Shown in pieces: positions 26,804-29,668 of a DNA stretch of 40,673 nucleotides. The position numbers and the translations under genes are program-made. The notes beneath the pieces are model-generated. The model searched no databases and was not told the DNA's origin. It saw only the letters and a program-made list of their open reading frames with translations. This DNA comes from Spirochaetales bacterium. Its GTDB lineage: Bacteria > Spirochaetota > Spirochaetia > JAIPGG01. The stretch spans positions 1 through 40,673 of the forward strand of contig JAIPGG010000015.1 of NCBI GenBank assembly GCA_021736255.1. Reading direction: 5' to 3'. How positions within the stretch are numbered: the first letter of the stretch is position 1; each line of letters opens with the position of its first letter.

Positions 26804-27367
26804 CTATGTGTCGGTCCGTTCGGTCTCTCCGAATACGAGTGCCTCGAAACACAAGAGCTCAGTCTCGGGGTCTTTCCAGCAGCCCGGTGTGAGGCCGGCC
26901 TTTTTACAGGTCTGGTCGAGGAAGGTTATCCGGTCCCAGTTTTGTTCAATCGGAACCTGAGGGAGGAGGACTCCAGCGGCTCCTCGGCGCTTTATGTAGA
27001 GTCCGTGTCTTCCGACAACCACTTCCTCGGCTTTGCAGGGTTCGAGCGGTGAAAGGACAGAGATCTCAATATCGATCTGCTCGTATTCCTCTTTCTGCAA
27101 AGGGGGAAAGCGGGGGTCCCGGAAGGCTGCCGACAGGGCCATCTTTTCTATTGTTTCGTTGAGCGGCCCCTCAGCAACGATGTGACCAATACATCCGCGG
27201 AGCCTGTCTTCCTTGTGCAGGGTAACAAAGGCCCCGTATTCTTCGGTGAGTTCCGGGGGTACGGGTCCGGTTTTGGGTTTTCTGTTTTCGAGTTTCGCCT
27301 TGATGGTTTCTCTGGCGAGATTGAGCAAAAAATCCTTTTGTTCCTGATTCATTTCAAGTCTCATCAT
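26804..27367 (-). CDS. amrA: AMMECR1 family protein (AmmeMemoRadiSam system protein A)
   Basis: A 187-residue AMMECR1-domain protein. The hallmark LRGCIGHI lies near residue 58, with AAFRDPRFPPL near 82, IEISVLSPLE and GVLLPQV following, all in family order. Biochemical role unknown. In many archaea and bacteria it is encoded with Memo and a radical-SAM protein; here Memo is directly upstream and no radical-SAM gene is in the window. Tandem ATGs at 27367 and 27364 overlap the Memo stop; AGGGA 5-8 nt upstream supports them over the Met at 27352. The gene is convergent with the FecR gene; only 25 nt lie between, without a clear terminator. Confidence 0.9.
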   Translation of the reverse strand: MMRLEMNQEQKDFLLNLARETIKAKLENRKPKTGPVPPELTEEYGAFVTLHKEDRLRGCIGHIVAEGPLNETIEKMALSAAFRDPRFPPLQKEEYEQIDIEISVLSPLEPCKAEEVVVGRHGLYIKRRGAAGVLLPQVPIEQNWDRITFLDQTCKKAGLTPGCWKDPETELLCFEALVFGETERTDT

Positions 27368-28193
27368 CTTTATCCCTGAAAAATGCTAGTGCTCCGTAGG
27401 AAACCACGTGTTCTCGATTCCCGTCCAGCTGCTGTGAGTTTCCCGTACTCAAGACCTCGCTCCGGCACGGCCCGTTCATACAAGAAAGCAGAACGGAAAT
27501 CGGACCGAGGCCGCACGGGGAGACCTCGTGCCGAAGACCGGCGTCCAGAACGGCTTGAGAATCCCCTTCTCTTATGAGCCTGATGAGTTCTTGGGTTTGG
27601 TTATCGCTTTCTTCCGTCGATTTGCTGCTGCTCAGATTTGAAGAGACTACAAAGAGCACCTCTTCTGGGGCTTTCCCGCACAGAAGGTTCAGAGCGCTGG
27701 AGAGAACACGGACATTCTTTCGGGAAGCTCGCCCCATGAGGATCGGCACAATCCGTATTTTCGGAAACAGATGAAAAAGGAAGGGCAGGTGAACCTCTAT
27801 TGCATGTTCCTCGAGATGAGGGATGTCGTTTCGCACGAAGTTCGTGCCGGCTGATTCGAGTTCTTCGACGAGTTCCTGGTCTACTGCGATTTTTCCCGAA
27901 GGTATGAGGAAGCTCGTGGATTCGGGAAGAACGAGAATATCTTCTTCTTCCCGGTGAACAGGAGCGAGGAGAACAGCCGTTTTGTAGCTGCCGGAGGATA
28001 CAGCTCGAAACCCCTCTCCGTACTGGGTCCCGGCATAGTCGTAGCCTGCATGGGGGAGGATGAGTCCAGCGGCTTTCCCCTTTTGTGTTTCAGCATTGTC
28101 GAGAAGGCGGCGGACTGTTGTTTTCAACCCCTCCGAGTCGGAAGGATAGAATATCCCGGGTACAATCGGTTCACGTACGGTTTCCTCGATCAT
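27354..28193 (-). CDS. amrB: Memo family protein (AmmeMemoRadiSam system protein B)
   Basis: A 279-residue Memo-fold protein, related to LigB-type dioxygenases. PHAGYDYAG near residue 47, LLAPVHREEE near 76, HLEEHAIEVHLPFL near 125 and SPCGLGPI near 226 match the family, and the His, His and Cys that line the metal pocket in Memo are present. The usual SSDxSHY motif reads SSNLSSS, losing an Asp and a His, so chemistry at this pocket may be altered. No Shine-Dalgarno precedes the ATG; it follows the NFACT stop by 2 nt, as if translation were coupled, or it may use the promoter at 28202-28230. AMMECR1 overlaps its 3' end. Confidence 0.9.
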   Translation of the reverse strand: MIEETVREPIVPGIFYPSDSEGLKTTVRRLLDNAETQKGKAAGLILPHAGYDYAGTQYGEGFRAVSSGSYKTAVLLAPVHREEEDILVLPESTSFLIPSGKIAVDQELVEELESAGTNFVRNDIPHLEEHAIEVHLPFLFHLFPKIRIVPILMGRASRKNVRVLSSALNLLCGKAPEEVLFVVSSNLSSSKSTEESDNQTQELIRLIREGDSQAVLDAGLRHEVSPCGLGPISVLLSCMNGPCRSEVLSTGNSQQLDGNREHVVSYGALAFFRDKDDET

Positions 28194-28195
28194 AA

Positions 28196-28483
28196 CTAGA
28201 AATTATGAGGCATTTTATCGTCGAATGCAACGCCGTTCTCTTCACCCGCCCCGAACAGGCGTTTCAACCGTTCCTTGTCGAGCCGGACAGCGAGGTTCTT
28301 TTCCTGTGTAGGAATTACGAGTCCGGTCTTGCCCTGTTTGACACGCCGCAAATATTTGACTTGGGTGTAATAGACGTCGGCGCTTCCTGCCTTTCTGAGT
28401 TTGCTGAAATGGAGGGCGAGGTTTGCCGCATCGAGAAGTGTTTCGAGGGGAATCGATTTGCCCGACTGCTGCTGTATAAATAG
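28196..28483 (-). pseudogene. C-terminal remainder of NFACT/RqcH gene after the in-frame UAA
   Basis: Directly after the UAA at 28484-28486 the same frame stays open for 95 codons to TAG (28196-28198). It reads SGKSIPLETLLDAANLALHF, then KLRKAGSADVYYTQVKYLRR, VKQGKTGLVI, EKNLAVRL and the tail DDKMPHNF. This is the rest of the NFACT-R domain in perfect register, so no frameshift is involved: one codon, expected to be Tyr or His (family PGSY/H), has become a stop. The lack of further stops and the good match mean the change is recent, a sequence error, or tolerated by readthrough. Confidence 0.9.
28202..28230 (-). promoter_or_regulatory. Possible internal leaderless promoter of the Memo gene
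   Basis: On the minus strand: TTGCAT (28225-28230), 17 nt, CATAAT (28202-28207), 8 nt, ATG at 28193. It lies in the last codons of the NFACT frame. The -35 match is weak. Confidence 0.3.
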
Positions 28484-29668
28484 TTACGAGCCTGGAGCGT
28501 TTCGGACATGGAGCGATGTGTCGTTTCCTCTGGTATGGCGCCGGAGCAATTCGTCGTTTTCCCGGTCGTTTCTTCCTACCAGAATCGTGTGCAGACCGGA
28601 ACGGAAGGCAAGACCGGGACGGCCTTCCTCGACCCGGGGTTTTTCCGGCGGTTGGTGTTTTTTCAAAAAGCTTTGGGCATAGTCGGGATCGTTCAGAATC
28701 TTTTCGCGCCGTTCTTCCAGGTCTTCGAGTTCACGGCGGACTTGTTTTTCCTCATTCTCGAGCCGTTCTTTTCGGGAGGCGATTTTTCCGGCACGCCGGT
28801 AATAGGCCTGAGCTTGGTCGGGAGCACTCAAGCCGGCAGAGAGGGGTATCTCGTAATGGGTTCCCGGAAAACGATAGCTTTCCAGGGTGATCGAGGATGA
28901 TCCCTCCGTCAGTTTGTTTTCCACATCCCGGAGAGAGGCAAAGATCAGGTCCCCGTATTCCCGGTACATGGTTTCATCCGCCGCTGAATCGAGCTGTTTC
29001 CTGATTCGTTCGAGCGCCGAACGAAGCGCATTACAGCGCCGCTCGAACAGCGCCCGGGCCCGCTCGATAACATCGCCCGTCTCCGTACTGCTGGGGCTTT
29101 GAAGATAGTGATTGTCGAGCCGTTCCTGGAAGCTGCCCTCTCCCGGCAGGTCGCGGATGCGTCCCGGAAAATCAGAAGAAGAAACAAGGCTGGAATCGAG
29201 TTCGGGGTGGTAAAACCCGCCGGTAACCTCTCCACGGCGCGGGCGCCGATACCACACGTCGAGGATTGTCCCTTCCCGGTCGGTGACGATCATGTTTGCC
29301 GCCCCTCCCCAGAGCCGAAGCCAAAGGAGGGTGGTTTCAAAATCTTTTTCCACGCCCTTTGTGAGCGTAAATTTTACAACCCGTTCCCTTCCGAGCTGAT
29401 AGACTTCGGCGAATCGTGCTCCGCCGATACGGGAAGCGAGGAATTGGGCAAACCGAAGGGCTCCCCCGCTTTTGGGAAATCCCCGCCTGGTAATGTGAAA
29501 GCGCATGGCCCTATGGTCGAGGGAGATAAAGAGGTTTCTGTTCCCCTGTTCTCCGTGGAGTTGAAGAAACATCTCATTGTAGGATGGCTGTCGTATCTTG
29601 CGAACAAAGTCGCCGGGAAACTCAGCCTCTTCCAGAATAAGATCGATTTCCGCCCAATTCAGTCCCAT
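28484..29668 (-). CDS. rqcH: NFACT/RqcH-type ribosome quality-control protein, cut short by in-frame UAA
   Basis: RqcH binds the stalled large ribosomal subunit with peptidyl-tRNA and adds alanine tails that mark the chain for proteolysis. This part has the NFACT-N domain (PSYNEMFLQLHG near 28, LWGGAANMIVTDREGTILD near 112), helix-hairpin and coiled-coil region (about 200-340), and the start of NFACT-R (HTILVGRNDRENDELLRRH, LHVRNAPGS) before UAA at codon 395. The full frame would be 490 residues, a normal length. In NFACT-N the conserved Asp-Arg pair (Asp97-Arg98 of Bacillus RqcH, from memory) seems to be Glu95-Arg96. The start is the ATG at 29668, with AAGGAG 5 nt upstream, not the adjoining TTG. 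Losing NFACT-R should impair ribosome binding. Confidence 0.9.
   Translation of the reverse strand: MGLNWAEIDLILEEAEFPGDFVRKIRQPSYNEMFLQLHGEQGNRNLFISLDHRAMRFHITRRGFPKSGGALRFAQFLASRIGGARFAEVYQLGRERVVKFTLTKGVEKDFETTLLWLRLWGGAANMIVTDREGTILDVWYRRPRRGEVTGGFYHPELDSSLVSSSDFPGRIRDLPGEGSFQERLDNHYLQSPSSTETGDVIERARALFERRCNALRSALERIRKQLDSAADETMYREYGDLIFASLRDVENKLTEGSSSITLESYRFPGTHYEIPLSAGLSAPDQAQAYYRRAGKIASRKERLENEEKQVRRELEDLEERREKILNDPDYAQSFLKKHQPPEKPRVEEGRPGLAFRSGLHTILVGRNDRENDELLRRHTRGNDTSLHVRNAPGS

Follow-up and report, generated by a model that had tools for sequence, protein, structure and literature searches.

Gene layout at the locus

The window, by which we mean the whole stretch of 40,673 nucleotides that was analysed, carries on its minus strand a gene of the NFACT (RqcH/NEMF) family whose reading frame is broken by a single in-frame TAA, followed in the same run by Memo and AMMECR1 (Table 1). 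The frame, translated from 29668 to 28196 on the minus strand, reads MGLNWAEID...HVRNAPGS*LFIQQQ...KMPHNF*, where the asterisks are stops; its ATG is preceded by the Shine-Dalgarno sequence AAGGAG, and the codon directly 3' of the in-frame TAA is CTA. The window was read again, and the coordinates of the gene, the UAA at 28486-28484 and the CUA after it are as given in a sequence-only reading of this DNA. The same reading had held that the 95 in-frame codons beyond the UAA are free of stops, encode the remainder of NFACT-R and end 2 nt before Memo, which translation and homology both bear out.

Table 1. Features of the NFACT locus and its downstream neighbours (positions in the window).
Feature	Position	Strand	Basis or remark
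NFACT (RqcH/NEMF-family) gene with one in-frame TAA	28196..29668	-	NFACT_N PF05833 and NFACT-R_1 PF05670 matches in the read-through frame
Open frame before the TAA (394 codons), with NFACT-N, coiled coils, M domain and the beginning of NFACT-R	28487..29668	-	Predicted structure
In-frame TAA, codon 395	28484..28486	-	29 relatives: Tyr (26) or His (3)
In-frame part after the TAA (95 codons), with the larger share of the NFACT-R fold	28199..28483	-	Conserved positions, codon score, predicted structure
Normal gene end, TAG	28196..28198	-	Frame translation
Memo (AmmeMemoRadiSam B)	27354..28193	-	ATG at 28193, 2 nt after the NFACT end
AMMECR1 (AmmeMemoRadiSam A), next in the same run	26804..27367	-	

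The tail of the NFACT frame is taken as coding on the strength of homology, since a stop-free stretch alone is weak evidence: the chance of 95 stop-free codons at this composition is P = 0.014 to 0.06. No in-frame start-like codon occurs in the tail before codon +45 after the stop, which rules out the second half as a separate gene with its own start.

Domain composition

A member of the NFACT/RqcH family in the strict sense would be expected to take part in alanine tailing on the 50S subunit. Both characteristic domains of the family can be recognised in this gene. NFACT-N is present (PF05833, E = 2.4e-36, above the cut-off), and the match to NFACT-R_1 (PF05670) spans the TAA; its score of 44.7 bits (cut-off 29.8) requires reading through the UAA. 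With standard decoding, translation terminates within this domain, so that a complete NFACT-R is absent from the translated product, and according to the predicted structure the truncated protein would be without the strands and helices of NFACT-R at residues 396-474. The DR motif of NFACT-N, D97/R98 in B. subtilis RqcH, occurs here in the conservative form E95-R96; among 29 aligned relatives its first position is D in 15, E in 12 and another residue in 2, while R is found in 29/29.

A close examination of the predicted model between NFACT-N and the coiled coil showed no helix-hairpin-helix, residues 142-179 forming one four-residue helix only. Judging from this model, the NFACT proteins of the class, which are ~463-513 aa long, seem to lack the helix-hairpin-helix domain that B. 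subtilis RqcH has at this place. We also noticed that this protein and its aligned relatives (L003-L031) pass from NFACT-N almost straight into the coiled coil around residues ~142-178 (29135-29245, minus strand). Whether the label RqcH applies to this protein in the strict sense is uncertain; by length, the short form is class-wide.

Codon 395 in relatives

The comparison set consists of 29 aligned relatives (L003-L031) spread over many families of the class, with 35-44% identity to the protein. None of the genomes returned as relatives is from the same order, family or genus as this one, and pattern and protein scans of genome contigs, viral contigs and plasmids for close sister sequences gave no match. 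At the equivalent of codon 395 the relatives encode Tyr (TAT/TAC) in 26 cases and His (CAT/CAC) in 3, just the two residues that had been expected for the family from the letters alone, and in none of the 29 is there a stop. The UAA is private to this draft, the 29 aligned relatives being intact with a sense codon there, and a survey of the class revealed no stop at codon 395 in any other member among the matches listed.

The codon in sister genomes had been set beforehand as the discriminator between three readings of the stop, namely a fresh nonsense mutation, a sequencing error and a conditional readthrough, and the outcome favours mutation or error. These two readings are supported by the codons of the relatives, whereas conditional readthrough loses ground as the stop is shared by none of them. 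We therefore regard the UAA at codon 395 as very probably either a nonsense mutation, recent and private, or a wrong base in the draft, with no regulated two-form protein behind it.

State of the coding sequence on both sides of the stop

The read-through tail aligns to 29/29 class relatives, keeps 18/18 of the positions conserved to at least 95% among the other sequences, and has a codon score of 0.22, where the genome's long ORFs average 0.16. A long-standing pseudogene would be expected, from such alignments, to show decay in this part, and the tail is without any; its intactness indicates that the lesion is either recent or unreal. Upstream of the stop, 5 of the 36 strictly conserved positions (at least 95%) differ, including Q23R, W385S and D390N, of which the latter two lie within 11 codons of the stop and may reflect, as far as the sequences tell, lineage divergence or a slight older relaxation. 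Decay of the upstream part was considered and rejected: other class members vary as much at conserved positions, and this sequence, though among the more divergent ones there, is no outlier.

An intact tail is what would be seen if the organism had an intact NFACT gene and the stop were a sequencing or assembly error, a reading that we find quite conceivable, if on balance doubtful. The draft consists of 133 contigs and is 81.8% complete, and one base separates UAA from the commonest codon type of the relatives. Against an error speak the position of the site, a long way from either end of the 40.7-kb window, and the condition of other genes, as no other Pfam-domain gene checked in a sampled 200 kb of the genome is interrupted by a stop (the Pfam-checked candidates turned out to be gene junctions or to have no domain across the stop), which implies a low rate of erroneous stops.

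Lesions of the gene across the class

NFACT-R was matched in 176 of 198 class genomes; the 22 genomes with no match include some that are incomplete. Among the matches listed, the in-frame stops in NFACT are the present TAA and one TGA in genome G086. The latter (locus L083, contig C114) lies in the NFACT-R region and is a private TGA at what is an Arg codon (AGA) in its congeners, the rest of the gene being intact to the limit of the contig; the congeners G060 and G118 (L088, L089) are intact at that codon. In a further, near-complete genome (G197, locus L084) the gene carries a frameshift at a stretch of 7 T on the reverse strand near locus position 2572, whereas in its congener G155 (L087) the stretch is 6 T long and the frame intact; the shift in the poly-T run could be an error, a pseudogene or phase variation. 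Taken as sequences, these lesions are sporadic, varied in kind and site, and found beside intact congeners, as would be expected from mutation or error and not from a conserved device. No second copy of NFACT that would make the interrupted one redundant was found in the draft.

The sequence comparisons make a real and recent nonsense mutation, leaving an early pseudogene or a polymorphism with a truncated and probably inactive protein, a reasonably probable explanation. Loss of NFACT appears to be tolerated in the class, given the genomes without a match, the frameshifted near-complete genome and the draft with the UGA, and two strictly conserved residues beside the stop have changed as well; the 95 codons past the stop that are without decay weigh against this explanation.

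Genetic code and readthrough

Reassignment of UAA to an amino acid throughout the genome was ruled out by stop usage, tRNAs and stops in ABC domains. Of 122 long ORFs in 200 kb of the genome, 47 end in TAA, 57 in TGA and 16 in TAG; none of the 41 tRNA genes found in the draft has the anticodon TTA, CTA or TCA of a suppressor tRNA, so that none reads UAA; and 0 of 74 matches to ABC_tran domains across the genome contain an in-frame stop. RF2, which reads UAA and UGA, is encoded (SPF motif). Nothing beyond codon 395 itself speaks for reassignment, apart from the release factor RF1, which was not found: neither RF1 nor PrmC was detected above cut-off in the 82%-complete draft. The absence of RF1 is probably due to this incompleteness, since both TAG and TGA serve as normal terminators. 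As far as this draft goes, reassignment is refuted by the stop-free ABC domain matches, and we consider it practically inconceivable. We also noticed that tRNA-Tyr, tRNA-Ile(GAT) and tRNA-Ala(TGC) are not among the 41 tRNA genes; together with RF1 and PrmC they are probably gaps of the draft.

Programmed or leaky readthrough of the UAA, by which the factor would exist in a short and a long version, would fit a tail that is intact, coding and without a restart codon. The closer look at the orthologues, with Tyr or His in every one, removed the main reason for suspecting it. UAA is a normal terminator in this genome, there is no suppressor tRNA, and readthrough driven by RNA structure was rejected, as folding 3' of the UAA is within the range of shuffled sequences and no stronger than these (z = -0.37). 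The stop-CUA context, put forward in the sequence-only reading as a hint of readthrough, stems from eukaryotic UGA-CUA, and the argument finds no support in this genome. One survey reports that in-frame stops with constrained tails are widespread in bacteria, on the evidence of the same stop in orthologues and low dN/dS downstream (PMC7918605). This may be counted in favour of readthrough; the same survey, however, gives UGA and UAG as the stops known to be recoded, and the assumption of its authors is that functional recoding is absent from most of the cases detected. With a stop conserved in no relative, we judge readthrough at codon 395 to be very unlikely.

Memo and the neighbouring genes

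In 19 of the 29 relatives Memo likewise lies after NFACT on the same strand, and Memo and AMMECR1 beside NFACT are a common gene order in the class. No match to a Shine-Dalgarno sequence was found at the Memo start, where the duplex energy of +1.8 kcal/mol is the weakest of 26 starts tested. Translation of Memo is possibly coupled to that of NFACT and dependent on ribosomes that finish it, which we propose from the sequence because the Memo start lies 2 nt after the NFACT stop and has no Shine-Dalgarno. Such a dependence on full-length NFACT translation could be cited for readthrough, and the argument fits equally well with an intact NFACT gene in which the draft has one wrong base. A more elaborate version, in which leaky readthrough of the UAA keeps up a little full-length NFACT, couples it to Memo and lets the level of the factor track termination efficiency, appears highly improbable to us.

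Interpretation

Mutation or base error being preferred, the locus would hold an ordinary gene of the NFACT/RqcH family in which one codon, Tyr or His in the aligned relatives, reads UAA, in this draft only. Should the base be real, ribosomes would halt after 394 residues and release a product without most of NFACT-R; the nonsense mutation would thereby inactivate the gene, no further decay having followed so far, and translation of Memo, directly behind it, may be reduced through a polar effect.

The finding is ordinary. A single interrupted copy in a draft is no evidence of recoding and calls for caution, and the case would gain importance only if this UAA turned out to be conserved. To our knowledge, regulated readthrough of UAA in a ribosome-rescue factor would be new.

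Comparison with known systems

The gene shares with the RqcH/Rqc2/NEMF/FbpA (NFACT) family the order of NFACT-N, coiled coil with M domain, and NFACT-R, and differs from it in a frame that is cut by UAA inside NFACT-R. The best structural matches are structures of B. subtilis RqcH (7aqc, 8s1u and 7as8); the NFACT form found class-wide is, however, shorter than RqcH by ~100 residues, and the interval that separates the two matched stretches is 64 residues here as against ~157 in RqcH.

With the putative readthrough stops of bacteria (PMC7918605) the locus has in common an in-frame stop followed by a tail that may be constrained, but here the stop is found in no orthologue examined. In comparison with early-stage bacterial pseudogenes that carry a single nonsense substitution, the base at codon 395 comes here from a draft assembly, in which an error is possible; the likeness lies in the one stop, in the flanks that are both in frame, and in the absence of the lesion from the relatives examined.
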